This document shows positions 8,964 to 23,814 of a stretch of 42,058 nt of DNA, piece by piece. The notes under the pieces are model-generated. The model made no database searches and was not told the DNA's origin. It saw only the letters and a list, made by a program, of their open reading frames with translations. Every line of letters begins with the position of its first letter. The first letter of the stretch is position 1. The stretch is from an uncultured Geobacter sp. (GTDB lineage: Bacteria > Desulfobacterota > Desulfuromonadia > Geobacterales > DSM-12255): positions 1 through 42,058 of the forward strand of contig CALMOE010000233.1 in assembly GCA_937871715.1 (NCBI GenBank), in the 5' to 3' direction. Made by a program: the position numbers and the translations under genes.

Positions 8964-8983
8964 AAGGGTATTTGGTTTAATTG

Positions 8984-10192
8984 ATGGCACTATTTACATG
9001 TAAAATAGGAACCGCTGACGGTAAGATTGCCGAAAAGGAGTTCGAGGCTATCAGCGCGGATTTCCTCAGGCAGAATCTTGTTTCGCAGGGTTTTTTTGTC
9101 TTTAGTGTCAAGAAAAAACCGTTTCAATTTGTCTGGAATAAAGGGCTCTCAAGGAAGAAGATAGACACAAAAGGGCTCATTACCTTCAATCAGGAACTGT
9201 TGGTTTTAATTAAGTCTGGTCTGCCAATAATTCAATCGTTGGATACGATTCTTGAGCGGATCGACAACAGCAGACTGGCAGAGGTACTTGAGATAATACG
9301 TGATGACATCAAGGGGGGCAGTTCTTTGTCTGATGCTTTCGAGCGTCATCCAAGCACATTCTCCCATCTTTACATCGCATCAATCAGGGCCGGTGAAAGA
9401 ACCGGCGATCTGCCACAGACAATCAAGCGTTATATAACCTTCCTGAAGAAAACCGAAGGTTTCAGGAAGAAGGTTATCACCGCCATGTTCTATCCGGCAA
9501 TTCTCATGGTTGTTGCCTTCGCAGCCGTGACACTTCTGCTCGTATATGTTGTGCCGACCTTCAGTCAGGTTTACGCGGACGCCGGTTCAAAATTGCCAGT
9601 GCCAACCATGATACTCATAGGTATAACTTCAGTATTAAAAAAATATTTCCTGCTGTTGCTGGCATTTGTCTTTCTTGCTGCATATCTTTTCAAAGAGTGG
9701 GCAAGAACGGTGACCGGACGTCAAGTCATAGATACCTTCAAACTCAAGATTCCGGTAATCGGTGACATTTTCTCCAAGTATTCGGTCGTCAGCTTCACAA
9801 GAACTCTTGCCACAATTATTGAAAGCGGTATACCTATAGTTGAATCATTAAAAATGTCAGTGGCCACACTGAATAACGTGGTTCTTGAGGCAAGGATGCT
9901 GTCGGCGATCAAGAAGGTCGAAGAGGGTGTAAGCCTGAGCGTGGCTATAGACGGTGCTAACCTTATGCCCCCCCTCGCATTGCGTATGTTAAGCGTAGGA
10001 GAGTCTACAGGAGCTCTCGAGGAGATGCTTGAGAGCATATCCGATTATTTCGAGGAAGAGCTTGATCAGCGCATGCATCTTCTCAGTACAGCCATCGAGC
10101 CGGCAATCATGATTCTCATGGGGCTGATCATAGGGGCAATTATCGTGACCATGTACCTGCCGGTATTCAAAATTGCCGGAACTGTCGGCTGA
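8984..10192 (+). CDS. gspF: Type II secretion / type IV pilus inner-membrane platform protein GspF/PilC
   Basis: The 402-aa protein begins at ATG 8984, although the frame is open from a TTG one codon earlier. It starts with the short N-terminal segment typical of GspF (ALFTCKIGTADGKIAEKEF). It then has two copies of the T2SSF domain, seen in the paired motifs FNQELLVLIKSGLPIIQSLDTI and FTRTLATIIESGIPIVESL, and in IRAGERTGDLPQTI and LSVGESTGALEEML. Three transmembrane segments are visible near 167-190, 215-237 and 372-395. It forms the inner-membrane platform that couples GspE ATPase rotation to pseudopilus growth. It lies 20 nt after the cytochrome gene and 8 nt before gspE, so cytochrome and machine genes appear co-transcribed. 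Confidence 0.95.
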   Translation: MALFTCKIGTADGKIAEKEFEAISADFLRQNLVSQGFFVFSVKKKPFQFVWNKGLSRKKIDTKGLITFNQELLVLIKSGLPIIQSLDTILERIDNSRLAEVLEIIRDDIKGGSSLSDAFERHPSTFSHLYIASIRAGERTGDLPQTIKRYITFLKKTEGFRKKVITAMFYPAILMVVAFAAVTLLLVYVVPTFSQVYADAGSKLPVPTMILIGITSVLKKYFLLLLAFVFLAAYLFKEWARTVTGRQVIDTFKLKIPVIGDIFSKYSVVSFTRTLATIIESGIPIVESLKMSVATLNNVVLEARMLSAIKKVEEGVSLSVAIDGANLMPPLALRMLSVGESTGALEEMLESISDYFEEELDQRMHLLSTAIEPAIMILMGLIIGAIIVTMYLPVFKIAGTVG

Positions 10193-10200
10193 CCTTTTTT

Positions 10201-11922
10201 ATGAATATTACCTTTACCCGTAGAAAAATTGGTGAAATACTCCACGACCGCGGCGACCTGACCTTGGGACAGGTCGCGTATGTCATAGAGAAGTTGAAGG
10301 CAAACCCCCAGAGATTCGGTGAGTTATGTCTGCAGGATGGTCTTTTGTCTGAGGACTCGCTCTATGCAGCTCTTGCTGAGCAGTTCAACCTTGAATTCAT
10401 CGACATCTCCTCATTCCGGCTGGATGAGAATATCCTCAACCTCTTTCCAGCGGACATAATCTATCGTTACTCTTTCATCCCCGTCGAATTGCAGGGCGAT
10501 TCTCTGGTGATTGCTGTTTCCGACCCCGTTGATGTCATGAAGCTTGACGAGTTGGAGCTGCTGTTGGACAGGCCGCTGATAATAAAGCTGGCATCACCTT
10601 CGCGCATTCACCAGCTCCTCAAAAAAGGTGAAGGAACCAGCAGGGTACTGAAGGAAGTTTCTGAAGATTTTATGCTTCAGTTGGTGACCGAGACGGAAAA
10701 GGGGGAGGAGGTCCTCTCCGTAGAGGCTATCACTGCCGATACAAGTCCGATAATCAAATTACTCAACTCGACAATCATGGACGCTCTCACGCGGAGGGCC
10801 AGTGATATCCATATAGAAACGGCAATGGAAGGTGTCGTTATCAAGTATCGAATCGACGGGGTTCTTTATAAGGCGACAGACATCATTGACATGCATTTCC
10901 AGGGGCCGATAATCTCCCGGCTCAAGGTAATGAGCGAACTGGATATTTCCGAGAGACGAATACCCCAGGACGGGCGTTTCAAGCTACGAATCAATAACAA
11001 GTCAATTGACTTCCGCGTCTCCATCATGCCTAGCGCCTTCGGTGAAGATGCTGTCATCAGGATTCTCGACAAGGAGAGTATTGCCAGCGATCTCAAGGGT
11101 CTAACCTTGAACGTACTCGGCATGTCGGATCGGGAAATGAGGCGTTTCAGGAAGATGATCCGTGAACCTTACGGAATGGTGCTGGTTACAGGTCCAACAG
11201 GTTCTGGTAAGACCACCACACTTTATGCTGCCTTGACTGAAATTCACACCGGCGAGGAGAAGATCATCACCATCGAGGATCCGGTTGAATATCTTCTCAA
11301 GGGGATAGTGCAGATTCCGGTCAACGAAAAGAAGGGGCTGACCTTCGCCCGCGGTCTTCGTTCAATCCTGCGCCATGATCCTGACAAAATCATGGTTGGC
11401 GAGATTCGCGATCCTGAAACAGCACAGATTGCCGTCCAATCTGCGTTGACCGGCCATCTCGTCTTTACTACGGTGCATGCCAACAATGTATTCGACGTGA
11501 TTGGCAGGTTCATTCATATGGGGATAGACCCGTATAACTTTGTCTCCTGCCTCAACTGCGTCATGGCACAGCGTCTGGTGCGCAAGGTCTGTCCTAGCTG
11601 TAAGAAACCGGTCATCTACAGTGACGAGTTTTTGCAAGAGTCGGCGATCAATCCCGAAGAGTGTAGAGCCGTGACTTTATTTGAGGCAAGTGGTTGCGAA
11701 GAGTGCAATGGTACCGGTTATCGCGGCCGCTCTGCCATTGTCGAGCTGCTTGATTTGACCGACGAGTTAAGAGAGTTGATCGTCTCCAAGGCCCCGGTTG
11801 CCGTTCTCAAAAAGGCGGCAAAAGAGGCCGGGACAATGTTCTTGCGCGAGTCTGCCGTGGAAAAAGTCCTTATGGGGGAAACCACCATAAAGGAAATTAA
11901 CCGTGTAACTTTTGTGGAATAA
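10201..11922 (+). CDS. gspE: Secretion/pilus assembly ATPase GspE/PilB
   Basis: The 573-aa hexameric assembly ATPase has an N-terminal MshEN-type domain (residues about 1-150, FGELCLQDGLLSEDSLYAAL). Next come an N2D region with HIETAMEGVVIKYRIDGV, Walker A GPTGSGKTT (331-339), the Asp box ITIEDPVEY, Walker B/His box HDPDKIMVGEIRDPETAQIA and TTVHANN. A zinc-binding tetracysteine follows, with Cys464, Cys467, Cys499 and Cys502. The tetracysteine is found in assembly ATPases (GspE/PilB) and not in retraction ATPases (PilT). It acts in the cytoplasm on the GspF platform through the PilM-like protein encoded next. No PilT-type retraction ATPase is present, which favours a secretion function over twitching. 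Confidence 0.96.
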   Translation: MNITFTRRKIGEILHDRGDLTLGQVAYVIEKLKANPQRFGELCLQDGLLSEDSLYAALAEQFNLEFIDISSFRLDENILNLFPADIIYRYSFIPVELQGDSLVIAVSDPVDVMKLDELELLLDRPLIIKLASPSRIHQLLKKGEGTSRVLKEVSEDFMLQLVTETEKGEEVLSVEAITADTSPIIKLLNSTIMDALTRRASDIHIETAMEGVVIKYRIDGVLYKATDIIDMHFQGPIISRLKVMSELDISERRIPQDGRFKLRINNKSIDFRVSIMPSAFGEDAVIRILDKESIASDLKGLTLNVLGMSDREMRRFRKMIREPYGMVLVTGPTGSGKTTTLYAALTEIHTGEEKIITIEDPVEYLLKGIVQIPVNEKKGLTFARGLRSILRHDPDKIMVGEIRDPETAQIAVQSALTGHLVFTTVHANNVFDVIGRFIHMGIDPYNFVSCLNCVMAQRLVRKVCPSCKKPVIYSDEFLQESAINPEECRAVTLFEASGCEECNGTGYRGRSAIVELLDLTDELRELIVSKAPVAVLKKAAKEAGTMFLRESAVEKVLMGETTIKEINRVTFVE

Positions 11923-11926
11923 TGCC

Positions 11927-12853
11927 ATGTTTTTTAACAGGAAGACCCTGGGTCTTGAAATTTACAATAACGGTATAGCATTCGTGCTTGCAGGAGTTAA
12001 ACGCTCCTTCCCTTATGTTGAGCGTTATGCCGTTGCCAGGTTCCCCGGTGATATTGTGCGGGCCTCCATGAAAGAGGCCAATATAATTGAGCCGGATGTT
12101 CTCAGGGCAGCAATTTCCGACTGTTATGCCAAGCTCTCCACGAAGATCAAGCGAGTGGCACTGTCAATTCCGGATGCTGCCGGCAGGGTCATGCTTGTCA
12201 ATATGGAGATGCCAGTCAAGGACAAGCAAGAGGGGCTTGATCATGTTAGGTGGAAGTTGAAGAAAAACTTCCCATTGGACATTAGCGATCTGCACCTTGA
12301 TTATCAGGTCATACGTCATGATGGAGCTGGCTCTGCTCTTGTTCTGGTCAGTCTGGTTTCCCGGGGCGTTGTCCGCGAATATGAGGATATGCTCCTTGAG
12401 CTGGAACTGGAGCCGTCTTTTGTGGATTTTGCAAGCTTCAACCTCTACAGGGTATTCTCCTCGCGCCTCGATATGCAGGAGCATTCCTTATACATATCGT
12501 TATCCAGGGGATCATTGTCGGTATTCATCTTTCAGGACGGTTCGCTGGAATTTTATCGCAACAAATTCTTAGGATACAACGAGGTTGACCCTGCGAGGCT
12601 TTTCCGCGAGATCAGCAGTTCCCTGCTTGTATATTCCGACATGAAAGGTGGATTGAAGCCGCGCAATGTCTTTTGTTATGTTTCTGGTGAGAGCGGCGAG
12701 ATGCTCAGGTCGTTGCTGGTGGAGGCGATCGGAATTGAGCCGGTTTTCATGGATACGGTAGCCATTGCCAGTGGGGCTAAGCAGCAGATGGATCGTGAAA
12801 CCATCCCCGATATCTTGACTGCCCTGGGAGCGGCATCTAGGAGTCTGAGTTGA
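11927..12853 (+). CDS. pilM: PilM-like actin-fold assembly protein (GspL cytoplasmic domain equivalent)
   Basis: This 308-aa soluble protein starts at ATG 11927, 4 nt after the gspE stop, with GGA eight bases upstream. The frame extends back to TTG 11912, which would overlap gspE. It resembles PilM/GspL-N: LGLEIYNNGIAFVL, a helical region RALSIPDAAG-type (IKRVALSIPDAAGRVMLV), VRWKLKKNFPLDISDLHLDYQVI, and a second half ending DILTALGAASRS. PilM-class proteins bind the N-terminus of PilN inside the cell and link the ATPase to the membrane ring. The PilN-like gene overlaps its stop by TTGA. Sequence divergence is large, so the assignment leans on gene order. Confidence 0.8.
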   Translation: MFFNRKTLGLEIYNNGIAFVLAGVKRSFPYVERYAVARFPGDIVRASMKEANIIEPDVLRAAISDCYAKLSTKIKRVALSIPDAAGRVMLVNMEMPVKDKQEGLDHVRWKLKKNFPLDISDLHLDYQVIRHDGAGSALVLVSLVSRGVVREYEDMLLELELEPSFVDFASFNLYRVFSSRLDMQEHSLYISLSRGSLSVFIFQDGSLEFYRNKFLGYNEVDPARLFREISSSLLVYSDMKGGLKPRNVFCYVSGESGEMLRSLLVEAIGIEPVFMDTVAIASGAKQQMDRETIPDILTALGAASRSLS

Positions 12854-13380
12854 ATCTGCGCATCAATCTGGCAACCAGGGTGTATGTTGACTATCAGAAG
12901 ATTAATCTGATGTTGGCACTGCTTTTTCTTGCAATTGCCTCCTGGGGCTCGCTCGCCTTATATTCCATCTCTGTCAATGATTCGGAAAATGGGCGCCTGG
13001 AGCAGCTGATTAACAGGTCCAAGGGGAGTGACAAGGACGAAAAGGTCTCTGAAGCTGAGTTCAATAGAGTTATGGCAAACATAAGGTTTGCCAACACCAT
13101 TCTTGACAAGAAGGGGTATGACTGGCTGACCCTGCTCGACAATATTGAACTCTCTGTCCCAGCAGGAGTTTCTCTTAAAGGGCTTTCTCCGGCGGACAAG
13201 GGTGGGCAGATCAAGGTTAGTGGAACCGCGGTTAATTTTGCAACGGTGAGAAGAGTGGTCGAGCAGTTGGAAGGTTCAGGAAAGTTCAGTGATGTTTATC
13301 TGGTAGAGCAGACGTTCTTCAAAGAGGGAAATAGCGTCAAAGGGATCAATTTTACCGTCACCTGTAAGGCAGTTAACTGA
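12850..13380 (+). CDS. pilN: PilN-like inner-membrane assembly protein
   Basis: The 176-aa protein starts at a TTG that overlaps the pilM-like stop. The N-terminus NLRINLATR matches the PilN motif that inserts into PilM. It has one transmembrane segment near residues 17-38 (INLMLALLFLAIASWGSL), then a coiled coil and a periplasmic ferredoxin-like domain (LTLLDNIELSVPAGVSLKGLS, VRRVVEQLEGSGKFSDVYL). It is the counterpart of the C-terminal half of GspL. It would pair with the PilO-like protein encoded next, whose ATG overlaps its stop (TGATG). Split PilM/PilN is the type IV pilus arrangement rather than the fused GspL of classic type II systems. Confidence 0.82.
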   Translation: MNLRINLATRVYVDYQKINLMLALLFLAIASWGSLALYSISVNDSENGRLEQLINRSKGSDKDEKVSEAEFNRVMANIRFANTILDKKGYDWLTLLDNIELSVPAGVSLKGLSPADKGGQIKVSGTAVNFATVRRVVEQLEGSGKFSDVYLVEQTFFKEGNSVKGINFTVTCKAVN

Positions 13381-13934
13381 TGAATCTCTCAATTCTCAAA
13401 GAGATAGCGCTGTCGCGCAAGAGATCGCTCCTGATCCTGGCGTTTCTGTTCCTTGCAGCTATTTTTGCCCAGCTCTATTTAGTCATGTATCAGAAGCCAA
13501 AGCTGGAAAAGGCCAGGTCCGAGTGGGTGAAGCTGCGCGATGTCCAGGCAAGAGGTGTGGCAAGAGTGAGCCGGGACGAGATCTATCGCAGTGGAGAGAG
13601 CGATTTCAAAAAGTTCAGGGAGAGGATCTATGCCAAGAACCAGTTTGCCCGTTTCGTCGGAGAACTGTATGATATCGCAGGTAGAAACAGGCTGGAAGTC
13701 TCATCTGTCACCTATAAGCCCGAGATTAACAAGGAGAACAGCCTGCTCCAGTATGTCATGGCGATCTCTATTTCGGGCAGTTATGGAGAGTTGAAAAAGT
13801 TCATTGCCGACATCGACTCTGCGGGTAACATGCTGCATGTAGACTCCGTTTCATTCTCCTCCCAGGGTGGCGGGAGCGATCTGGTGCAGCTTCAGCTGCA
13901 ATTGACCACCTACTTCAGGACGGAGGCGCAATGA
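13380..13934 (+). CDS. pilO: PilO-like / GspM-like inner-membrane assembly protein
   Basis: The 184-aa protein has a single transmembrane helix near residues 15-33 (RSLLILAFLFLAAIFAQLYLVMY). A charged coiled coil follows (PKLEKARSEWVKLRD), then a periplasmic domain with FARFVGELYDIAGRNRLEVSSVTYKP and YGELKKFIADIDSAGNMLHVDSV, the beta-alpha pattern of PilO/GspM. It would form a heterodimer with the PilN-like protein and set the inner-membrane ring. Its ATG overlaps the pilN stop, and its own stop overlaps the next ATG, so translation is probably coupled through the whole alignment complex. Confidence 0.82.
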   Translation: MNLSILKEIALSRKRSLLILAFLFLAAIFAQLYLVMYQKPKLEKARSEWVKLRDVQARGVARVSRDEIYRSGESDFKKFRERIYAKNQFARFVGELYDIAGRNRLEVSSVTYKPEINKENSLLQYVMAISISGSYGELKKFIADIDSAGNMLHVDSVSFSSQGGGSDLVQLQLQLTTYFRTEAQ

Positions 13935-14551
13935 ACAGGCAGCGATTGATCCTGACCATCATGCTGCTGCTTCTGGCCTGTTCGCTTGTCATCAGCTATC
14001 TGCGCATGCCGAGGCAGGAGAGAGTTGAAAAACTGAAATATGTCAGCGGCATGAAGGTTCCGGTTGTAAGGCCTGCACAGAAAAACGTTGCCAGCGCAGA
14101 TGAGAGGATCCATCTGGAAGTGCTGGATAAAAATCGCTCCAGGGCTGTCTCAGTCAGGCGTGACCTTTTCCACAATATGTTTACCCCTGCTGCGAAGAAG
14201 CCGCTACTGCCTCTGCCCCCGCCGCCACCGCCACCTCTGAAGAAAGCAGTGCCGGAAGTTCCTGTGAAAGAGGTGGTGACTGCACCGCCACTGGTTGTTG
14301 AGCCCACTCCGCTGCAGAGGGATATGGCCAGGTTCACCTTCCTCGGGTTCATGAAGAAGGACAATCGCAAGACGATCTTCCTTTCCAACGAAAAGGAGAT
14401 TTTTCTGGTTAAAAAGGGTGACAGGATAGCCGGTAAATACGACGTGACCTCCTTAACGGAGGAAGCCTTGACAATCTCCAGCATTCAGGATGGGGGAGAG
14501 ATAATCATCCCGCTGGTGGAAAATAGGCCATTACATGCACCGAAAAGATGA
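13931..14551 (+). CDS. PilP/GspC-like periplasmic connector
   Basis: The 206-aa protein has an N-terminal hydrophobic segment (ILTIMLLLLACSLVISYL, residues about 6-24) that may be an anchor. Then come a Pro-rich linker with eight prolines in a row region (LPPPPPPPLKKAVPEVP, near 90-110) and a small C-terminal beta domain, FTFLGFMKKDNRKTIFLSNEKEIFLVKKGD. That domain matches the homology region shared by GspC and PilP. Its role would be to connect the inner-membrane ring to the secretin N-domain. A Cys lies in the hydrophobic stretch (LLAC), so lipidation as in PilP is possible. It precedes the secretin gene by 28 nt. Confidence 0.78.
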   Translation: MNRQRLILTIMLLLLACSLVISYLRMPRQERVEKLKYVSGMKVPVVRPAQKNVASADERIHLEVLDKNRSRAVSVRRDLFHNMFTPAAKKPLLPLPPPPPPPLKKAVPEVPVKEVVTAPPLVVEPTPLQRDMARFTFLGFMKKDNRKTIFLSNEKEIFLVKKGDRIAGKYDVTSLTEEALTISSIQDGGEIIIPLVENRPLHAPKR

Positions 14552-14564
14552 ACACCCTTGTTTT

Positions 14565-14570
14565 CAGGAG
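14565..14570 (+). promoter_or_regulatory. Ribosome binding site deciding the secretin start
   Basis: CAGGAG lies nine bases before ATG 14580. It supports that start over the upstream in-frame start codon at 14535, which lacks a signal peptide. Confidence 0.7.
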
Positions 14571-14579
14571 AGCGCCACG

Positions 14580-17168
14580 ATGAATGTCGTCATTAAAATA
14601 AGCTGCCTGTTTCTGTTATTGATCTCCGCTGCCTGCACCCCCGGACGCACAGCCTTTGACAAGGCCCAGCACCTGGAGCGGCAGGGGATGTTGGACGAAG
14701 CGGTGGTCAAGTATGCCGAAGCCATCAACAGGAACCCCGATACAAGCGAATACAGGCTTCGCTTCCTGAAGGCTAGCGAGAGTGCAGCAAAACAGCATAT
14801 GCTGGATGGGGACAGGCTGCTGGACGCTTCCCGCTATAACGAGGCTTTTGGTGAGTATCAGAAGGCCCTGGCAATGGACCCTTCCCTGGAAAGGGCGAAG
14901 CAGCAGAGCGAGATGGTGCAGAAACTCCAAGGGGCTGCGGTGGCGCTAGCTGAAGGGGCTGCTTTTGAGAAGGCGAACAAGGTCAAGGAGGCGGTTCGTT
15001 CCTATCAAAAGGCGCTCAACCTTAATCCTGCCAACAAGGAGGCCGGAGATGCCCTTGAAAGGCTGATGAAGACGAGGCGTCTCAAGACCGACTCCTTCGA
15101 GCTGAATCTCAAGTCGATAAAACCCATAACCCTCAAATTCAAGGATGCCAAGTTAAAGGATGTATTCAACATCATCACCCAACTGTCGGGGATCAATTTC
15201 ATCTTTGACGATGGGGTAAAGGATGCGAACATAACGATCTTCCTGGAGAACGCCACATTTCAGCAGGCGCTTGACCTCATAACCGGGATGCAGAAGCTGA
15301 ACAGGAAGGTTCTCAATGAATCGACGATGATCATCTACCCCAAGAGTCCGGACAAGGTAAAGCAGTACGAAGATCTTTATGTGCAGACCTTCTACCTTAA
15401 CAAGCTGGATGCCAAGAAGGCTGTCAACCTCATCCGCACCATGCTGCAGGTTAAAAAGATCTACGTCAACGAGGAGATGAACACCCTGGTCATCAGGGAT
15501 ACGGAGGACGTGATCGAGGTTGCCCGCAGGATACTGGAGGCAAACGATGTCCCAGATGCGGAGGTCATCCTCGAAATCGAGGTCATAGAGCTCGCCAAGA
15601 AAAATTCGGAGACCTTCGGCATGGCTCTCAGCAAATATGCCATCGGCTACAACACCCTGTCTCCTTCCGGGGCGTTCTTCAGCGACAGCCTTACATCCAC
15701 AACAACTACAACAAGTTCGACCACTACTGGTACCGCCACGGTTTCAGCTGATACAAGTCAGCTTCTCAATCTATTCAAGTGGGGTGATTACCGCGGCTTC
15801 GTTACCGTCCCCAACGCCACATTCAACTTCGGCAAGAAGATCGGCAATGCCGAAACCCTTTCAAACCCGAAGATACGCATAAAGAATCGAGAGAAGGCCA
15901 AGTTCAACGTGGGCACCAGGGTTCCTATAACCACCACATCAAGCAACGGCGTGGGTAACTACAATGTCAATGTGCAGTACGTTGATGTTGGCGTTAAGAT
16001 AAACGCAGAGCCGACTATTCAGCTTAACAACGATGTGAACATCAAGCTCGGATTGGAGGTCAGTTCGATCCTCTCCAAGGAGACCGTCGGCTCGGACAAA
16101 AACACGACCGTGGCGACGATCGGCACGCGGAATCTGGATACGGTCCTCTCCCTGAAAGACGGGGAGACGAGCATCATAGGAGGGCTTATCCAGGACACGA
16201 AGGGGCAGAATGCCGACAAGATCTTCCTCCTGGGTGACATTCCGATCATAGGCCAGCTCTTCTCCAATCGCGACCATTCCAATGACAAGACCGAGCTGAT
16301 TCTGGCAATTACCCCGAAAATTATCAGGGGGGTTGCGGTTTCCGATCCGGAGGTCGCCGCCTTCTGGTCGGGTCTGGAGGATGACCCGAACATTGCCAAG
16401 CACTATGTCTCCTTCGCTCAGGAGCCGGAATTCGCTGCTGCGGATGGCAAGCAGGGTAAGATTGTCACACCTGCCAAGGATCTGCAGCCCAAACCGGCGG
16501 AGAAGGTTCAGTCACAGCAGCCGGCAGCCGCTCCACAGCCGGCAGCCGACTCCCAGGCTAAGAAGACGGCTCCTGTCGAGGCTACAGCCCAACCCCCTGC
16601 TGCCCCAGCACCCACATCAGCAGTGCAGCCGCTAACGCCCCAGCCCCAGCAGGCAGATCCGACCAAGCCTGAAGCAGCAGCTGCAGCGGAGCAGAAGGGG
16701 TCTGTCGCGCCGCCCCCCCCTATGCCCGAACCTGCGCCAGTTGCGCCGCTAATAGGCAAGGTGTCGCTCAAGGTGGTTGCTCCCGCAACCGTGAAAATCG
16801 GGGAAAACTTCAACGTGGATGTCATGGTGAGCGATGCTGCCAAGCTTTCAGCTGCGCCACTAACCCTGATCTTCGACGCTGCAGCACTTGAGGCCGTTTC
16901 CGTTACGGAGGGGAGCTTCATGCAGCAGGATGGGCGCAAAACCGTCTTCAGCAACAAGATCGACAATCAAAACGGCCAGGTTGCCATAAAGATCACCGGG
17001 GAGGGGGAGGGGGCTTCAGGCGCAGGCAAGCTCCTATCCCTGAACTTCAAGGCCAAGGGGAAGGGTCCTGCAAGCATCGGGTTCGTCGGTGTGAAGCTGA
17101 TGACATCCATAGGGAAGCAGCAGGACTCCATCCTTTACAATGCGGTCGTGGAGGTCAAGCAGCCCTGA
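14580..17168 (+). CDS. gspD: TPR-secretin lipoprotein with C-terminal cohesin-like domain (GspD)
   Basis: The 862-aa outer-membrane channel starts at ATG 14580; a signal peptide follows with lipobox ISAAC, Cys19. Residues about 25-165 are tetratricopeptide-like repeats (RQGMLDEAVVKYAEAINRNP, ASRYNEAFGEYQKALAMDP, KVKEAVRSYQKALNLNP). An N-domain follows near 176-310 (LKDVFNIITQLSGINFIFDDG), then the secretin core near 325-590 with VPIT, SIIGGLIQDT and PIIGQLFSNRDHSNDKTELILAITPKI. After an Ala/Pro/Gln-rich linker (about 620-725), residues 726-862 form a separate beta-rich module (VSLKVVAPATVKIGENFNVDV, LTLIFDAAALEAVSV, AGKLLSLNFKAKGKG) that matches the cohesin fold. The TPR and cohesin additions are not part of ordinary GspD or PilQ. 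Its stop overlaps the pseudopilin ATG. Confidence 0.93.
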   Translation: MNVVIKISCLFLLLISAACTPGRTAFDKAQHLERQGMLDEAVVKYAEAINRNPDTSEYRLRFLKASESAAKQHMLDGDRLLDASRYNEAFGEYQKALAMDPSLERAKQQSEMVQKLQGAAVALAEGAAFEKANKVKEAVRSYQKALNLNPANKEAGDALERLMKTRRLKTDSFELNLKSIKPITLKFKDAKLKDVFNIITQLSGINFIFDDGVKDANITIFLENATFQQALDLITGMQKLNRKVLNESTMIIYPKSPDKVKQYEDLYVQTFYLNKLDAKKAVNLIRTMLQVKKIYVNEEMNTLVIRDTEDVIEVARRILEANDVPDAEVILEIEVIELAKKNSETFGMALSKYAIGYNTLSPSGAFFSDSLTSTTTTTSSTTTGTATVSADTSQLLNLFKWGDYRGFVTVPNATFNFGKKIGNAETLSNPKIRIKNREKAKFNVGTRVPITTTSSNGVGNYNVNVQYVDVGVKINAEPTIQLNNDVNIKLGLEVSSILSKETVGSDKNTTVATIGTRNLDTVLSLKDGETSIIGGLIQDTKGQNADKIFLLGDIPIIGQLFSNRDHSNDKTELILAITPKIIRGVAVSDPEVAAFWSGLEDDPNIAKHYVSFAQEPEFAAADGKQGKIVTPAKDLQPKPAEKVQSQQPAAAPQPAADSQAKKTAPVEATAQPPAAPAPTSAVQPLTPQPQQADPTKPEAAAAAEQKGSVAPPPPMPEPAPVAPLIGKVSLKVVAPATVKIGENFNVDVMVSDAAKLSAAPLTLIFDAAALEAVSVTEGSFMQQDGRKTVFSNKIDNQNGQVAIKITGEGEGASGAGKLLSLNFKAKGKGPASIGFVGVKLMTSIGKQQDSILYNAVVEVKQP

Positions 17169-17668
17169 TGAGTGGCGCCAGAGCCAAGAACTCCGGCATC
17201 AGCCTGGTGGAGCTGATAGTCACCCTCTCCATCCTGGCGATCCTGGCGTCTGTAATTCTCCCCTCGGCGCAGATGATCTCCAAGCGCAACAAGGAGATCG
17301 AGCTGCGCAGGAACCTGCGAACCATCAGGATGGCCATCGACGACTACAAGAAGACCTACGACAAGGGGGTCGACGAGAAGAAAATCATCCCCTCCATGAA
17401 CAAGAGCGGCTATCCGGAGACTCTAGACAAGCTTGTGGAGGGTGAAGATTTCGGCGGAGTACTTAAGGAGAAGAAGAAGTTTCTTCGCCGGGTCCCCTTG
17501 GATCCCTTCTCGGACAAGCAGGCGGCCACATCCCCGGAGTGGGGGTGGGGGTTGCGATCCTATGCCGACAAACCTGATTCAAGCATTTATGGGGGGGAGG
17601 ATGTGTACGATGTCTACTCCCTCAGCGACGGCACAGCCATTGACGGCACAAAGTACAAGGACTGGTAA
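17168..17668 (+). CDS. GspG-like pseudopilin, first copy
   Basis: The 166-aa prepilin has a short basic leader ending in Gly (ARAKNSG), then the conserved start of the mature pilin: ISLVELIVTLSILAILAS, with Glu at position 5 and a hydrophobic helix. The C-terminal part has YPETLDKLVEG, RRVPLDPF, EWGWGLRSYADKP and EDVYDVYSLSDG, a GspG-type pattern. The leader peptidase site is Gly8/Ile9. No prepilin peptidase gene is in this window, so one must act from elsewhere. It is a probable major pseudopilin of the machine and may correspond to OxpG of Geobacter sulfurreducens. The ATG overlaps the secretin stop (TGATG). Confidence 0.9.
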   Translation: MSGARAKNSGISLVELIVTLSILAILASVILPSAQMISKRNKEIELRRNLRTIRMAIDDYKKTYDKGVDEKKIIPSMNKSGYPETLDKLVEGEDFGGVLKEKKKFLRRVPLDPFSDKQAATSPEWGWGLRSYADKPDSSIYGGEDVYDVYSLSDGTAIDGTKYKDW

Positions 17669-17672
17669 GTAG

Positions 17673-18083
17673 ATGAAACTCCTCTCTAGACTTAACAGGC
17701 GCGGTTTCACCCTCATCGAGCTGATGATCGTCATGTCGATTGTCGGCATCCTCGCCTCCATTGCGGCCCCAAACTTCCGCTGGGGGTTGATCAAGGCCAA
17801 GGAGTCTGTGTTGCGCGAGCAGCTCTATACCCTTAATTCGACCATCGACCAGTTTTTTGCCGATAAGGGGAAGTATCCCGATAGCTTGAGTGATCTTACA
17901 GAGGGTTCTTTACCCTATCTGCCGAGAATACCTAAGGATCCTTTCACGGGTCAGCCCGACTGGGTGACGCTGGCGCCGATGGGATCTTCAGACGGAGCCG
18001 AGATAAAGGGAAATATTTATCGTGTGAAGAGCAATTCCCCCTTGAGGGGGAGTGATGGCAAACCTTACAACGAGTGGGAATAG
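17673..18083 (+). CDS. GspG-like pseudopilin, second copy
   Basis: The 136-aa prepilin has leader MKLLSRLNRRG followed by FTLIELMIVMSIVGILASIAAP: processing after Gly11, Phe at position 1 and Glu at position 5. The C-terminal part, GKYPDSLSDLTEG, LPRIPKDPFTGQPDW and GNIYRVKSNSP, is GspG-like but shorter than that of the first copy. It lies 4 nt after the first pseudopilin gene and 6 nt before ftsE. No minor pseudopilin genes of the H, I, J or K type are recognisable nearby, so the pseudopilus may be built of only these two. Confidence 0.9.
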   Translation: MKLLSRLNRRGFTLIELMIVMSIVGILASIAAPNFRWGLIKAKESVLREQLYTLNSTIDQFFADKGKYPDSLSDLTEGSLPYLPRIPKDPFTGQPDWVTLAPMGSSDGAEIKGNIYRVKSNSPLRGSDGKPYNEWE

Positions 18084-18089
18084 GATGGA

Positions 18090-18767
18090 ATGATCGAACT
18101 GCATAATGTCACCGTAAGCTACCAGAAGGATGCACCCGCCCTGAGCGGCGTAAATCTCAAAATCCCCAAAGGGGATTTTGTGTTTTTGACCGGACCCTCC
18201 GGGGCAGGCAAGTCAACGCTCCTTAGGCTTGTCTATGCCGCTGTCAAGCCGAGCCACGGCCATGTGGTTGTGGACGGGCAGAATGTCACGAGAATGACCA
18301 GGCACCAGATCCCTTTCCTGCGCAGGAACATCGGCGTTGTCTTCCAGGACTTTAAGCTCCTCCAGACAAGGAGCGTTTTCGACAATGTCGCCGTAACCCT
18401 TGAGGTCCTGGGGTGGGAGAAGAAGGACATCGGCAAGAAGGTCTACCACGTCCTCAAACAGCTCGGCATCGAGCACAAGATGGAAGCGAGCCCTCAGAGG
18501 CTCTCTGGGGGGGAGCAGCAGAGGGTTGCCCTTGCAAGGGCACTGGTGAACGATCCAAAGATCCTCCTTGCCGACGAACCGACCGGTAACCTGGATGACC
18601 ACAACAAGGACCAGATACTGAAGATATTCAAGGAGGCCAACATCCGCGGCACCACGGTTATCATCGCATCCCACGACAAGAGAGTGGTTCACTACAGCCA
18701 CAACCGCATTGTTCATCTCGAAAAGGGGCGCATTAAGGAGAATAGGGATGACTCGTTCCAGGCATAG
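18090..18767 (+). CDS. ftsE: Cell-division ABC ATPase FtsE
   Basis: The 225-aa ABC ATPase has Walker A GPSGAGKSTLLR, Q-loop VVFQDFKLL, signature LSGGEQQRVALARALV, Walker B ILLADEPTGNLD and switch His in IIASHDKRVV. The N-terminus MIELHNVTVSYQ and the residues around the Q-loop (NIGVVFQDFKLL) are typical of FtsE. With FtsX it forms a mechanotransmitter that switches on periplasmic cell-wall hydrolases during division. It is placed 6 nt after a pseudopilin gene and overlaps ftsX by 20 nt. Confidence 0.95.
   Translation: MIELHNVTVSYQKDAPALSGVNLKIPKGDFVFLTGPSGAGKSTLLRLVYAAVKPSHGHVVVDGQNVTRMTRHQIPFLRRNIGVVFQDFKLLQTRSVFDNVAVTLEVLGWEKKDIGKKVYHVLKQLGIEHKMEASPQRLSGGEQQRVALARALVNDPKILLADEPTGNLDDHNKDQILKIFKEANIRGTTVIIASHDKRVVHYSHNRIVHLEKGRIKENRDDSFQA
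18735..18740 (+). promoter_or_regulatory. Ribosome binding site deciding the ftsX start
   Basis: AAGGAG lies inside ftsE, seven bases before ATG 18748. It favours that start over the upstream in-frame start codon at 18709. Confidence 0.75.
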
Positions 18768-19692
18768 CGTCAGGCCCCACGCATCTGCCATGGGCCCCTG
18801 GAGCAGGTTCTGCTACTTTGCCGCCAAGGCGTGGGCCAACCTGTTGAATAATAGGCTTGTTACGGCAATAACCGTCTTCACCATAACCCTTGCACTGCTG
18901 ATCATATCCCTTTTCCTCCTTTTTTACGTGAATATCGAGGGGACGGTGGACCAGTGGAGCAGGAAGGTTGTGGTAACCGTCTACTTCGAGGGGGAGTTGA
19001 CTCCCCAGGAGGTGACCTCGCTGAAGGGTAAAGTGTCCTCCCTGCAGGGGACGGACAGCGTGCAATACATAGGCAAGGAAGAGGCACTGAAAAGGTTCCG
19101 CAGCCGTTTGAAGGGGCAGGAGTCACTTCTTGAAGGGGTTGCTCCCGATACGCTTCCTGCCTCCATGGAGATATCCCTGAAGAAGCAGTTCCGCTCGTCA
19201 GAGGCGATCGCCTCGTATGTCGCCGCATTGAGAAAAGTACAGGGTATCGGTGAAATACAGTACGGCGAGGAGTGGGTGAGGAAGTTCCTCTCCTTCTACC
19301 AGTTTCTCCGTCTCCTCGGTCTGTTGATAGGTGGCTTCCTCCTACTTACGGTAATGTTCATCGTCTCCAACACCATCAAACTGACCATTCTTGCCAGAAA
19401 GGAAGAGCTGGAGATCCTCAGTCTCGTAGGGGCTACCCCTTTTTTCATCAAGGCCCCATTTCTCATCGAGGGGATGATCCAGGGTGCTTGCGGCGCCCTT
19501 TTTGCCATCATCCTGCTTGTGTCAGGCTATTACGCCTTCCTCTCCAATGCGGTCAATTTTCTCTCCTTTAACCCGGCTGACTCCGGCATGATCTTCCTCC
19601 CCCCTGTTTATATAGCAGCTCTTCTCTTCGGCGGGGTTACACTTGGGTTAATTGGCAGCCTGGCCTCTCTGAAGAAGTTTGTCATAAACTGA
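18748..19692 (+). CDS. ftsX: Cell-division membrane protein FtsX
   Basis: The 314-aa protein starts at ATG 18748, which has a good ribosome site within ftsE. It has the FtsX plan: a cytoplasmic N-terminus, a first transmembrane segment (VTAITVFTITLALLIISLFLL, near 40-62), and a periplasmic loop of about 100 residues (VVVTVYFEGELTPQEVTSL, IGKEEALKRF, LPASMEISL). Three more transmembrane segments follow near 195-215, 245-265 and 285-305, with the family motif TILARKEELEILSLVGATPFFI. The periplasmic loop normally recruits an EnvC-type activator, and such a gene follows directly (TGATG overlap). Confidence 0.93.
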   Translation: MTRSRHSVRPHASAMGPWSRFCYFAAKAWANLLNNRLVTAITVFTITLALLIISLFLLFYVNIEGTVDQWSRKVVVTVYFEGELTPQEVTSLKGKVSSLQGTDSVQYIGKEEALKRFRSRLKGQESLLEGVAPDTLPASMEISLKKQFRSSEAIASYVAALRKVQGIGEIQYGEEWVRKFLSFYQFLRLLGLLIGGFLLLTVMFIVSNTIKLTILARKEELEILSLVGATPFFIKAPFLIEGMIQGACGALFAIILLVSGYYAFLSNAVNFLSFNPADSGMIFLPPVYIAALLFGGVTLGLIGSLASLKKFVIN

Positions 19693-20879
19693 TGCCGATG
19701 CATGCAATTATATTTCTGCAGATAATGCTGCTCTTTATGCTCCCAGGTGTCATATTCGCCGATGTGAAGGATGATCTCAAGGGTATCAAAAGCGAGATAC
19801 GCGAGAAGCAGAAGCTGCTCAAACAGACGAAAAAGGCGGAAAGCAAGGTTTCTGGCGAGCTGGTGCAGATCGACAGGAACCTGAAGGAGAAAGAGGCCGA
19901 TCTTCAGCACCTTGGCAGGGAGTTGAAGCTTGTGGAGTCTGGGCTTGGCCATACCCAGGGGGAGATCCAGACTCTGCTTGCCGAGCTGGCAAGGCGCAAG
20001 GAGCAGATAGACAGGCGGATCTCATCTCTCTACAAGGCCGGCGAAATGGGGAATCTGAGAATATTCTTCTCGTCGGGATCGATACCAGATGTCCTGGAAA
20101 ATCGTCGCTACATGCAGTCAGTGCTAGAGCACGACCGCAAGCTTTTCAATGAGTATCAGGATAGGCTTGGCCAGCTGCAGGCATTGAAGTCCTCGCTGGA
20201 GAGTGAAGCCGCCAGGAAGGAGAAGCTGAGCGACAGGATCAGGGCAAAAAAAAAGGAGATAGAGGACGAGAAGTCGAAGAAGTCCGCCCATTTATCCCAG
20301 ATAAGACAGGAGAAGAAAACCTACCAGCTCTCCCTGAAGGAGTTGCAGGCCAATGCCAGCAGGCTGCAGGCAATGGTTGAAAGGCTTGAAGCAAGAAGCA
20401 GAAAAAGCTATAATTCGAAAGGTGACAAAAAATCTGTTATTTCTGGGAATTATCCTCAGCCTCCGCTCAGCGACAAGGGGTTCGGCTCCCAGCGTGGCAG
20501 GTTGTCCATGCCGGCAGCAGGTGAGGTCGTCAGCAGATTCGGCAAGCATAAGCATCCCGAATTCAACTCCTTTACTTTCAACAACGGCATATCAATAGCT
20601 GCTCCCATGAATGCCGATATCCGTGCGGTATTTGATGGCGAGGTCATATTTGCCGAAAAGTTCAAGGGGTATGGCAACATGCTTATCATCGACCACGGGG
20701 GCGGCTATTTCACTCTTTATGCGCATACCGCTAGAATCAACAAGAGGGTAGGAGCTTCGGTGCGCAGGAATGAGACCGTTGCCCAGGTCGGTGATAGCGA
20801 TTCGACCCGTGGTAGCCAGCTCTACTTTGAGATACGCTACCAGGGGAAACCGATTGATCCGGGCCCCTGGCTAAGGTAA
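19692..20879 (+). CDS. envC: EnvC-like murein hydrolase activator (coiled coil + degenerate LytM domain)
   Basis: The 395-aa exported protein has a signal peptide (residues about 1-24, ending GVIFA), long coiled coils near 25-115 and 150-240, and a C-terminal LytM/M23 domain near 275-395. Active M23 peptidases need HxxxD and the first His of HxH. Here the first site reads FNNGISIAAP, with Asn and Ser in place of His and Asp, and the last reads LYFEIR, with Tyr in place of His. All three zinc ligands are therefore missing, as in EnvC, which activates amidases without cutting peptidoglycan itself. The gene follows ftsX with an overlap, as expected for an FtsEX partner. A second in-frame ATG at 19698 is also possible. 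Confidence 0.9.
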   Translation: MPMHAIIFLQIMLLFMLPGVIFADVKDDLKGIKSEIREKQKLLKQTKKAESKVSGELVQIDRNLKEKEADLQHLGRELKLVESGLGHTQGEIQTLLAELARRKEQIDRRISSLYKAGEMGNLRIFFSSGSIPDVLENRRYMQSVLEHDRKLFNEYQDRLGQLQALKSSLESEAARKEKLSDRIRAKKKEIEDEKSKKSAHLSQIRQEKKTYQLSLKELQANASRLQAMVERLEARSRKSYNSKGDKKSVISGNYPQPPLSDKGFGSQRGRLSMPAAGEVVSRFGKHKHPEFNSFTFNNGISIAAPMNADIRAVFDGEVIFAEKFKGYGNMLIIDHGGGYFTLYAHTARINKRVGASVRRNETVAQVGDSDSTRGSQLYFEIRYQGKPIDPGPWLR

Positions 20880-20911
20880 CCTTTTCATCAATCATCCAGG
20901 TTGGAGGAGTA

Positions 20912-22240
20912 ATGTTTCGTTCAAATCGTAAGGGGAAGTGGATTGTGGCTCTATTGGTTGTCGTCCTGGCCACGCTGATAACTACCACCATGCATCGCAA
21001 CTCGGTGGCTGCCGGCAACGACTACGAGTCCATCGAACTGTTCACCGATGTCCTCTCCATTGTCAAGAAGAGCTATGTGGAGGAGGTTGATACAAAGAAG
21101 CTCATCTACGGTGCCATCAACGGCATGCTCTCCTCTCTGGATCCACACAGCTCCTTCATGTCTCCCGAAACCTACAAGGAGATGAAGATAGAAACCAAGG
21201 GCTCCTTTGGTGGTCTCGGCATCGAGATCTCCATAAAAGAGGGGATTCTGACAGTCATCTCGCCGATAGAGGACACCCCGGCATACAGGGCCGGGATCAA
21301 GGCTGGTGACCAGATACTGAAGATTGACGACAAGTATACCAAGGACCTGACCATCATGGATGCGGTCAAGAGGATGCGCGGCACCAAGGGTACAAAGGTG
21401 ACCCTCTCCATCATGCGTGACGGTTTCGAGAAGCCGAAGGAGTTCCCCCTCGTCCGCGACATCATCCAGGTGAAGAGTGTCAAGTTCAAGACCCTTGACG
21501 AAGGGTACGCCTATGTGAGGATCGCCCAGTTCCAGGAGAAAACTGACGACGATCTGCAGAAGGCTCTGGAGAGTCTGAATGAGTCCAATAAGGGGAAGAT
21601 ACGCGGTCTGGTGCTCGACCTGAGAAATGACCCGGGCGGACTCCTGGAGCAGGCGGTGAGGGTTGCCGAGCACTTCCTCGACGAGGGAAAGCTGATTGTC
21701 TATACCGAGGGGCGTGACAAGGAGTCGCAGATGCGTTTCTCCTCCCGCAAGGGCGACAAGCAGCCCAATTATCCTATCGTGGTCCTGATAAACAGCGGCA
21801 GCGCCAGCGCCTCTGAGATAGTTGCCGGAGCGCTGCAGGATCACAAACGGGCGGTCGTCATGGGGGTGCAGAGCTTCGGCAAGGGTTCTGTGCAGACCAT
21901 ACTGCCTCTTTCCGACAACTCCGGCCTCAGGCTGACCACTGCCCGTTATTATACACCCAGCGGTCGGTCGATCCAGGCTAAGGGGATCTCTCCTGATATC
22001 GTCGTCGATAGGATCGAGCTCGCTTCGGGCGCAGAAAAGAAGGACTCCATGCACCTCAGGGAGAAGGATCTGGAGAACCACTTCGAGAACGATAAAAAGG
22101 AGAGCGCAGCTGACAAGGAAGAGGCCCTGCCGATCTACAAGACGGACGAGCAGGTAAAGTCCGACTATCAGCTTCTCAGGGCACTCGACCTTCTCAAGGG
22201 GTGGGAGATCCTGAAAAAGGTCATGGCAACCGCGTCCTGA
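20912..22240 (+). CDS. ctpA: C-terminal processing protease CtpA (S41 family)
   Basis: The 442-aa protein has an N-terminal signal anchor (IVALLVVVLATLITTTM, about 11-27). A CTP N-domain follows (LDPHSSFMSPETYKEM), then a PDZ domain near 100-180 (GLGIEISIKEGILTVISPIEDTPA, AGIKAGDQILKIDD) and an S41 protease core. Spacing fits the Ser299/Lys324 dyad: SGSASASEI and FGKGSVQ, 25 residues apart as in known Ctp enzymes. A clear GGAGGAG precedes ATG 20912. Ctp proteases trim periplasmic proteins, often cell-wall hydrolases and their regulators, which suits its place behind ftsEX-envC. The charged C-terminal tail (about 370-425) is longer than in minimal CtpB. Confidence 0.95.
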   Translation: MFRSNRKGKWIVALLVVVLATLITTTMHRNSVAAGNDYESIELFTDVLSIVKKSYVEEVDTKKLIYGAINGMLSSLDPHSSFMSPETYKEMKIETKGSFGGLGIEISIKEGILTVISPIEDTPAYRAGIKAGDQILKIDDKYTKDLTIMDAVKRMRGTKGTKVTLSIMRDGFEKPKEFPLVRDIIQVKSVKFKTLDEGYAYVRIAQFQEKTDDDLQKALESLNESNKGKIRGLVLDLRNDPGGLLEQAVRVAEHFLDEGKLIVYTEGRDKESQMRFSSRKGDKQPNYPIVVLINSGSASASEIVAGALQDHKRAVVMGVQSFGKGSVQTILPLSDNSGLRLTTARYYTPSGRSIQAKGISPDIVVDRIELASGAEKKDSMHLREKDLENHFENDKKESAADKEEALPIYKTDEQVKSDYQLLRALDLLKGWEILKKVMATAS

Positions 22241-22267: not shown

Positions 22268-23752
22268 ATGAAGAGAATTTGTTCCCTGCTGGTTTTTTCA
22301 ACGATTTTTCTTGCCGCTTCGGTTTGCGCTGCTGCAAACAGAGTTGGAATAGAAAGTGGATCACCTGGTGTCTTTTATGTCAAGGCGTATGATCTGGTGG
22401 ACATAAGCGGCGTGGAGATCGAGCTCTCCTATGACACCACTGCCCTCGCCAATCCAAGGATAACCCAGGGGGATCTGCTCTCCTCGACGATGTTCATTCC
22501 TAACCCCGCGTACAAGCCAGGCATGGTGAAGATCGCCGCCATGTCTCTCAAACCCCTGCAGCCAAGTGGGGTGCTCGCCGTTCTCACCTTTGACCTCAAG
22601 GGGAGCGCACCGGGGGCGGTGGCCGTTGCTCGCAGGGTTCTCGCTACGTCACAGGGGGCATCGGTCAAGCCACCTCCTCCAAGCAGTGGCGATCCAAAAG
22701 ATATTATAAAAGAGAGCAAGGACGATACTAAGGATACCTCGCTAAACCCTCCAAGGGGTGACCTCGGAAGCACGAACTTGGCCGGCGTCTCCATGGGGAC
22801 GATCACTCTTCCTCAGGACCAGCTTGCAACAACCGAGATGAAGGGGGAGTACCAGCCGCTGGTGACCGATCTGCGCAAGGATATGACCATTCCAGTAGGT
22901 GGGGGAGAAGGTGGGCAGGTGGCTGCCGCATCGGCCTCGACACCCGAGGGTAAGCAGGCAGCCGCTGCATCGGTTGTCTACAAGTCTGTTCTGCAGATGT
23001 TCAGGGAGTTCAAGGGGGAGAGGGTGGCCGCCTCCATGATGGCCCTCTTTGCCAAGGCTGCCTATCCTGACTTCAAGCAGGAGCCCCCCATCGTTATCAG
23101 CGACGGCCTCAATCCGGTGAAGGTTTCCCTGAGGCTGAAACCGAGCGGCAACGAGTCACCCAAGTTCATCCTCCAAGGGGCAAACGTCAAGCAGCTGCGC
23201 GGAGAAGGGGAGGAGTACGACTGGATAGTTGAAGCCGTTCCGAAAAAGGGGGTCAGCGAGGCCAGGCTGATTGCCATCGACGGGCAGAGGACCCTTGAGT
23301 TCCCCCTTGTCGTTGCCCCCCCTGTTAACACCGCCTTAAGCGGCGGGGCCAAGACAAGGGAGAGTGATTTCGGCAAATACCTGGAAAAAGGGTCGAAGTA
23401 CGACCTCAACAAGGATGAGAAGATAGACTACCTGGACGATTACATCTTTGCTGCGAACTACATCGTAGCCATGAAGATAGACCCGGCCAAGCTGGTTGAA
23501 AAGGTTGTCAAGGAGCCTGCCAAGGAGGAGAAAAAAGGGGTACAGCAGAAAGCCGATCCCGCGAAACCAGTGTCCGGTAAGCAGTCTGGCGAGGAGGCTG
23601 GAGAGAAGAAAGCTGGTAAGGCCGGTGAAGTCAGTGGCCAGTCCGACCCCGAGAAGGTAAAGAAGGATAAATCCCGCAAGGATTCGGACAAGCAGAGTGA
23701 AATAGAGGGTGGGAGCCAGGAAAAGAAGAAGCCAGAGCCTGCAGATAAATAG
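22268..23752 (+). CDS. Secreted protein with cohesin-like domain and a dockerin-type calcium loop
   Basis: The 494-aa protein has a signal peptide (MKRICSLLVFSTIFLAASVCAAA). Residues about 25-130 form a beta-rich module resembling cohesins: FYVKAYDLVDISGVEIELSYD, ALANPRITQGDLLSSTMF, SGVLAVLTFDLKGSAPG. A middle part (about 180-350) is not recognised. Residues 379-390 match an EF-hand loop of dockerin type: Asp379, Asn381, Asp383, Lys385, Asp387 and Asp390 fit DxNxDxxIDxxD, followed by the helix YIFAANYIV. Only one such loop is visible, whereas classic dockerins have two. The last 95 residues are Lys/Glu-rich low complexity. It ends the 19-gene run, just before a terminator. The cohesin-like match to the secretin C-terminus suggests a shared function, which is inferred. 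Confidence 0.8.
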   Translation: MKRICSLLVFSTIFLAASVCAAANRVGIESGSPGVFYVKAYDLVDISGVEIELSYDTTALANPRITQGDLLSSTMFIPNPAYKPGMVKIAAMSLKPLQPSGVLAVLTFDLKGSAPGAVAVARRVLATSQGASVKPPPPSSGDPKDIIKESKDDTKDTSLNPPRGDLGSTNLAGVSMGTITLPQDQLATTEMKGEYQPLVTDLRKDMTIPVGGGEGGQVAAASASTPEGKQAAAASVVYKSVLQMFREFKGERVAASMMALFAKAAYPDFKQEPPIVISDGLNPVKVSLRLKPSGNESPKFILQGANVKQLRGEGEEYDWIVEAVPKKGVSEARLIAIDGQRTLEFPLVVAPPVNTALSGGAKTRESDFGKYLEKGSKYDLNKDEKIDYLDDYIFAANYIVAMKIDPAKLVEKVVKEPAKEEKKGVQQKADPAKPVSGKQSGEEAGEKKAGKAGEVSGQSDPEKVKKDKSRKDSDKQSEIEGGSQEKKKPEPADK

Positions 23753-23778
23753 AGAGGCTAGGTGATCAACTTCAAGAG

Positions 23779-23814
23779 GCAGCCCTGTGGTTATGTTGCA
23801 GGGCTGCTTTTTTT
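23779..23814 (+). terminator. Rho-independent terminator ending the cytochrome/secretion operon
   Basis: Nine-base arms GCAGCCCTG (23779-23787) and CAGGGCTGC (23799-23807) pair perfectly and are followed by seven T (23808-23814). The convergent PHP gene runs into this hairpin: its stop codon lies in the loop at 23791-23793. Confidence 0.92.

Follow-up and report, generated by a model that had tools for sequence, protein, structure and literature searches.

Why would a single type II secretion operon encode a cohesin domain on its secretin and, on a second protein, a cohesin together with a dockerin-like calcium loop? We addressed this question in an uncultured Geobacter sp., starting from a stretch of 42,058 nucleotides (the window, i.e. 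the whole stretch of DNA analysed). The second protein, the 494-residue product of 22268-23752, is named COHF here. The operon runs in the order GspF, GspE, PilM, PilN, PilO, PilP-like, secretin with cohesin, two pseudopilins, FtsE, FtsX, EnvC-like, CtpA-like, COHF and terminator:

8981..14551, + strand: GspF, GspE, PilM, PilN, PilO and PilP-like genes (Pfam, NCBIfam; the PilP-like gene has no Pfam match and is named by position)
14535..17168, + strand: type II secretion secretin (TPR, N0/STN, Secretin_N and Secretin domains) with a C-terminal cohesin (Pfam, NCBIfam)
16785..17123, + strand: secretin cohesin domain, residues 751-863, after a Pro/Ala-rich linker (Pfam Cohesin E 6.5e-13); a C-terminal domain shared by the related secretins compared
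17168..18083, + strand: two pseudopilins in the OxpG/PulG position (N-methylation motifs; order conserved)
18090..22240, + strand: FtsE, FtsX, EnvC-like peptidase and CtpA-like protease, between secretin and COHF (ORFs; ABC domain; conserved order)
22268..23752, + strand: COHF gene, 494 aa (cohesin, linker, Ig-like domain, dockerin-like module); last gene of the operon, with the CtpA gene 27 bp before it (ORF call)
23774..23812, + strand: probable intrinsic terminator closing the operon (stem-loop with T run)

The gene after COHF (23791-24663) is convergent. The F, E, PilMNO-like, secretin and pseudopilin genes beside FtsE/FtsX are those of a Pul/OxpG type II system; this gene set has been described previously, and the Pul system of Geobacteraceae lies beside cell-division genes (PMC3543383). 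No GspC was identified in the operon using Pfam and NCBIfam. COHF lies 5.1-8.7 kb downstream of a cohesin secretin, on the same strand, in at least 37 of the 97 genomes of the order, and in the loci inspected the same genes separate the two.

Directly upstream of gspF are two multihaem c-type cytochrome genes (7120-7878 and 7887-8963, with 4 and 7 CxxCH motifs), the second of which ends 18 bp before gspF. The pair is placed identically in a same-genus genome (L035 1-750 and 693-1835), and in another genome of the family that place is likewise occupied by a multihaem ORF (L116 14099-14998). Ahead of the cytochromes, 6076-7119 encodes an NHL-repeat (ScyF-like) protein; the dockerin-tagged proteins of contigs C73 and C140, described below, are also NHL-repeat proteins.

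COHF itself was modelled at full length by AlphaFold2 with 45 relatives, and was compared with relatives in a family alignment of 88 distinct members; the position of its gene after SecD-pseudopilins-FtsE-FtsX-EnvC-CtpA is conserved. Its parts are as follows:

22268..22336, + strand: signal-peptide-like segment MKRICSLLVFSTIFLAASVCAAA, without a lipobox (sequence; N-terminal helix 2-17 in the model; cleavage site inferred)
22340..22669, + strand: cohesin domain, residues 25-134 (Pfam, PDB profile search, AlphaFold2, Foldseek)
22670..22969, + strand: disordered variable linker, residues ~135-234 (pLDDT <50 at 155-217; Ser/Thr/Gly/Pro-rich, unconserved in relatives)
22970..23317, + strand: Ig-like beta-sandwich, residues ~235-350, forming one packed unit with the dockerin-like helices
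23324..23386, + strand: decayed first F-hand VNTALSGGAKTRESDFGKYLE, residues ~353-373 (intact loop at the same place in 9/88 relatives; model helix 365-373)
23402..23470, + strand: second F-hand, with calcium loop 379-390 and helix 388-401 (invariant Asp; model; PDB profile matches)
23510..23749, + strand: Lys/Glu/Pro-rich disordered C-terminal tail, residues 415-494 (pLDDT ~50; absent from most relatives in the alignment)

The N-terminal domain of COHF is a true cohesin, both by profile and by fold. In a single-protein search residues 45-118 scored 23.1 bits against Pfam Cohesin (PF00963), for which the cut-off is 24.1, and in the genome search COHF scored 25.7 bits, above that cut-off; the same Pfam model matched 10 of the 12 COHF relatives tested. 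A profile of the COHF family matched solved cohesins (4ums, E 4e-5; 2xdh, E 8e-5). The pLDDT of the modelled cohesin was mostly >90, and the 49 best Foldseek matches to the AlphaFold2 model were all cohesins or cohesin-dockerin complexes, the top match of the cohesin being a non-cellulosomal one from Archaeoglobus fulgidus (2xdh). An earlier note on this DNA had likened the N-terminal module to the cohesin of the secretin. Direct BLASTP of the one against the other gave no match, i.e. it was blind to a relation that profile-profile comparison recovered with a probability of 97.1% and an E-value of 6.5e-11, and the likeness was thus borne out. The Pfam search of the genome found three proteins with one cohesin each. 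Elsewhere we observed lipoprotein-like proteins (L024, L027 and L029; Cys-Gly-Gly after the signal) that have a COHF-like cohesin without the C-terminal module; as membrane-anchored cohesins, these could possibly serve as alternative docking sites.

Residues 379-390 of COHF are DLNKDEKIDYLD, followed by the helix DYIFAANYIV, and the loop residues named in the earlier note (Asp379, Asn381, Asp383, Asp387 and Asp390) are all in place. The window ORFs of at least 100 aa contain, all together, one copy of the motif D-x-[ND]-x-D-x3-D-x2-D, where shuffles lead one to expect 0.025 copies, and it arises in 0.05% of shuffles of COHF. The loop is also conserved in orthologues, a point on which the note had made its reading depend: among 45 family members D379, D383, D390 and D391 do not vary, and conservation of N381 and D387 is at least 90%. 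No other part of the family is conserved as well as the loop, which is present in 88 members.

The same note described a single dockerin loop. This is true of the window COHF, which carries VNTALSGGAKTRESDF at the first-loop site, but the single loop does not appear to be ancestral: in the alignment, nine of the 88 relatives have an intact first F-hand (e.g. DLDKSGKIDDNDF, DLDGSGKVTEADF and DVDKNGVVDDTDF). Because these intact loops lie one F-hand upstream, the most plausible view is that the single loop of COHF represents the second half of a dockerin-like module with two loops, the first of which would have decayed in most lineages. Of the two intact F-hand calcium loops that define Dockerin (PF00404) the window protein has the second only, and Pfam gave no Dockerin_1 (PF00404) match to it. 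In most of the two-loop relatives tested Dockerin_1 spans positions 3-48, in several of them covering both halves of the module, at E-values of 0.005-0.15 that fall below the cut-off, and EF-hand models score about as well as Dockerin_1; the best PDB profile matches of the COHF loop segment are dockerins, albeit weak ones (E 0.013 and above). For these reasons we refer to the C-terminal segment as dockerin-like. As is usual for dockerin-type loops, Asp occupies position 12 (Asp390, invariant) and no helix directly precedes loop 1; in the model a beta-strand reaches the first-loop region. With one calcium loop left and no Pfam Dockerin_1 match, it is uncertain whether the module would function as a dockerin. 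When the C-terminal module was modelled alone (pLDDT 92, pTM 0.88), the Ig-like domain and the loop-helix part formed one compact unit, for which Foldseek returned weak Ig-like matches only (best E 1.3e-3) and no dockerin or X-module match. One short secreted protein (L023, G010:C121) consists of the Ig-like plus loop module alone, without a cohesin.

The earlier note had advised looking for other dockerin-like loops in the genome, and four dockerin proteins were indeed present, two on contig C208 and one each on C73 and C140. On C208 the dockerin sits at the C-terminal end of a multicopper-like protein and of a subtilase; their genes belong to a run that also encodes a COHF paralogue and a separate multicopper-oxidase-like protein. 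The C73 and C140 proteins are of NHL/Ig type. The latter two contigs are 90% identical over 3.6 kb and encode near-identical proteins with the same C-terminal dockerin (L033, G000:C73; L034, G000:C140), i.e. they are either recent duplicates or the assembly of strain variants.

We built a profile of the lineage dockerin (A4) from 19 such dockerins. Matches to PDB entries identify it as a true dockerin (2y3n_B, E 1.4e-8; 1ohz_B, E 5e-8), and it was found in 71 of the 97 genomes of the order, with up to 19 per genome and E-values down to 1e-29. In 49 of 53 distinct proteins, at most five residues separate its end from the stop codon, and it therefore looks like a C-terminal tag. Its helix signature, DALLxLRxAVGL (D-A-L-x-x-L-R), is sharply unlike that of the COHF loop, DDYIFTANYL (DDY-I-[FY]-T-A-N-Y-L). 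Lineage dockerins (e.g. L032 4767-4976) have an insertion in the second calcium loop, ADVAPLxNGxPxPDGxI, and the last residue of the proteins that carry them is usually aromatic (W, F or Y). Pfam Dockerin_1 found 56 of these 97 genomes, as against 71 with the A4 profile, and conclusions drawn from the absence of Pfam dockerins were dropped because of this under-count. The Pfam search of the genome found no multi-cohesin scaffoldin. The dockerin proteins of the genome itself belong to the multicopper-like, S8 and NHL/Ig types, and there was no glycoside hydrolase cargo among the dockerin proteins found; the COHF system is therefore not a cellulosome. Apart from the secretion operon, there are also clusters in which the same or adjacent proteins of 249-943 aa carry cohesin and dockerin domains (L143, G047:C3; L099, G041:C14).

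In a pattern scan of ~85,000 species genomes, COHF was confined to genomes that are Geobacter-like or otherwise of Desulfuromonadales type. We compared the distribution of COHF with that of the A4 dockerin in samples of the order and class, in which presence calls depend on the E-value cut-offs. Among the 97 genomes of the order, 70 had both, 5 had COHF only, 1 had the dockerin only and 21 had neither (Fisher p ~1e-15, with no correction for shared ancestry). Among the COHF-only genomes, G037 and G078 have partial COHF matches, and G013, G016 and G021 have some PF00404 match. Joint absence was seen in several separate genera whose other members have both, so a single event is unlikely to account for it. 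Outside the order, a single genome of the class-wide sample (G107) had an A4 dockerin, and G107 alone had a nearly full-length COHF (loop DFDGDGSISALD); its two genes are neighbours, 0.5 kb apart on the same strand. COHF and cargo genes lie within 7 kb of each other in nine genomes, in all nine of which they are on the same strand with the cargo upstream.

The secretin cohesin occurs in genomes of all families sampled in the order. It is not tied to COHF, since seven genomes keep it without COHF or the A4 dockerin (four of the seven without any PF00404 match). By our table, 72 of the 75 COHF genomes have it, and G072 was added after reading its secretin; the secretin of G092 is truncated where its contig stops, and no secretin match was obtained in G009, whose genome is incomplete. 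All COHF genomes in which the secretin could be read to its end have the secretin cohesin, two that the Pfam search had missed among them. G072 had been a candidate for a COHF genome without it, and was rejected because the C-terminal cohesin is plain on reading (L246), as it also is in G107 (L250); Pfam missed the G072 domain at E 0.01, and Pfam counts of cohesin secretins are therefore too low. The pairing of COHF with cargo is better supported than that of the secretin with COHF.

These results suggest that exported proteins of Geobacterales are probably served by a docking system that is cellulosome-like and as yet uncharacterised, and which we picture as working in two steps. In step (i), which we regard as likely, the COHF cohesin would bind the two-loop C-terminal dockerins of exported proteins of the same genome, i.e. 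in this case the multicopper-oxidase-like protein, the subtilase and the two NHL/Ig proteins. In step (ii), to which we give somewhat less than an even chance, the dockerin-like end, joined to the cohesin by the flexible linker, would dock to a second cohesin, most plausibly that of the secretin, so that cargo would be brought to the pore or held near it. The COHF end should meet a different cohesin because its helix signature is so unlike that of the cargo dockerins, and the secretin cohesin is the obvious candidate because it is encoded in the same operon. COHF would serve as a cargo loader if it stays in the periplasm and as a surface tether if it is released outside. Secretin C-terminal extensions are expected to face the periplasm, as in GspD-pilotin structures, which would make loading a better fit than surface display. 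We give about an even chance to COHF acting as a monovalent adaptor scaffoldin within the Pul/OxpG-type type II secretion system. A broader proposal, that a cohesin-dockerin code addresses exported proteins to the type II system, the C-terminal dockerin being read by the secretin cohesin, the COHF cohesin or both, is put forward tentatively and is on the doubtful side.

The same modules could be connected differently. The secretin cohesin might itself read the cargo dockerin as a secretion tag, with COHF as a parallel, outer docking protein whose Ig/dockerin-like end sits on a non-secretin anchor. Such an arrangement would suit a lineage dockerin that is as strictly C-terminal as a sorting tag, a secretin cohesin that is found in every family sampled of the order, and a system with PilMNO-type parts in whose operon no GspC was identified. 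However, seven genomes have the secretin cohesin without the lineage dockerin, and cargo genes nearly always lie beside COHF genes and not beside secretin genes (L138 is the one exception), and we consider this arrangement rather unlikely.

It is less probable still that the modules do not bind each other at all, i.e. that the cohesin folds are generic beta-sandwiches, the loop is a structural calcium site, and the linkage reflects only a shared envelope or secretion function. The window COHF does have a single loop and no Dockerin_1 match, EF-hand models score about as well in its two-loop relatives, and secretin cohesins do occur without dockerins, but this explanation would leave unaccounted for both the co-occurrence of COHF with dockerins and their gene neighbourhood in two orders. 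Self-assembly, in which the cohesin of one COHF copy would bind the dockerin-like end of the next to give a chain, is suggested by the presence of both modules on one flexible chain; one cohesin is, however, unlikely to recognise signatures as different as DDYIFTANYL and DALLxLRxAVGL, and some proteins have the C-terminal module without any cohesin (L023), so that we regard chain formation as very improbable. The two-step scheme, in which COHF would link dockerin-tagged cargo to a second cohesin, is the reading we prefer.

How type II systems tell their substrates from other proteins is a long-standing question, and the dockerin code, if true, would supply a defined substrate tag where the signal has so far been elusive. 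The C-terminal dockerin, the adaptor and the cohesin-bearing secretin together offer simple, separable modules for deletion, swap and binding tests. The hosts are related to metal-reducing, current-producing bacteria, in which surface proteins matter for electron transfer, and one class of cargo is similar to the multicopper proteins that Fe(III) oxide reduction requires. Were the modules to serve surface retention only, this would still be a widespread non-cellulosomal cohesin-dockerin system of Gram-negative bacteria with a conserved genomic context.

In cellulosomes, monovalent adaptor scaffoldins recruit dockerin proteins that escape recognition by the main scaffoldin and, as is proposed for COHF, pair a cohesin for one dockerin-bearing class with a dockerin for attachment elsewhere (PMC4959524). 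Of these two traits COHF has the cohesin, plus a module that is dockerin-like only. Its Ig-like domain next to the dockerin-like part recalls X-dockerin units, an analogy that we do not claim as homology because Foldseek gave no X-module match. Unlike adaptor scaffoldins, COHF belongs to Gram-negative Geobacterales and to a type II secretion operon, its dockerin is half-eroded, and the cargo on its side consists of multicopper-like proteins, subtilases and NHL/Ig/fn3 proteins. Since the window protein has one calcium loop and not two, we do not file COHF as a member of the class.

The closest structural match of the COHF cohesin, that of Archaeoglobus fulgidus (2xdh), is likewise non-cellulosomal. 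A. fulgidus also has a protein with both a cohesin and a dockerin. We know of no secretion operon or C-terminal-tag context for that pair. Non-cellulosomal cohesins and dockerins occur in many organisms, according to the parts consulted of two reports (PMC9012536, PMC10553843), among them ANME archaea and syntrophic sulphate reducers, which like the hosts here are anaerobes with non-cellulosomal cohesin/dockerin proteins of undetermined partners. The domains listed there include S8 protease and adhesin domains, a further likeness; these are other lineages, and the same parts describe no type II secretin link or conserved operon (PMC9012536, PMC10553843).

The earlier note had proposed an undescribed cohesin-dockerin system within one secretion operon. 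This is supported in part, in that the modules lie on several proteins, their linkage is conserved and no prior description was found in the papers searched, but the stronger association is that of COHF with separate C-terminal two-loop dockerin proteins (70/5/1/21 genomes). The literature found on the Pul/OxpG system makes no mention of a secretin cohesin, COHF or dockerin tags, and among the papers searched we found none linking cohesins or dockerins to secretins or to Geobacter secretion. Nor did any of them describe a type II secretin in conserved linkage with a half-dockerin adaptor and a C-terminal dockerin tag. A functional parallel comes from the Pul/OxpG system itself, which like that of the window lies beside cell-division genes: G. 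sulfurreducens requires the Pul system to secrete the multicopper protein OmpB (Mehta et al. 2006, cited in PMC3495685), and in the present genome a multicopper-like protein carries a dockerin tag.
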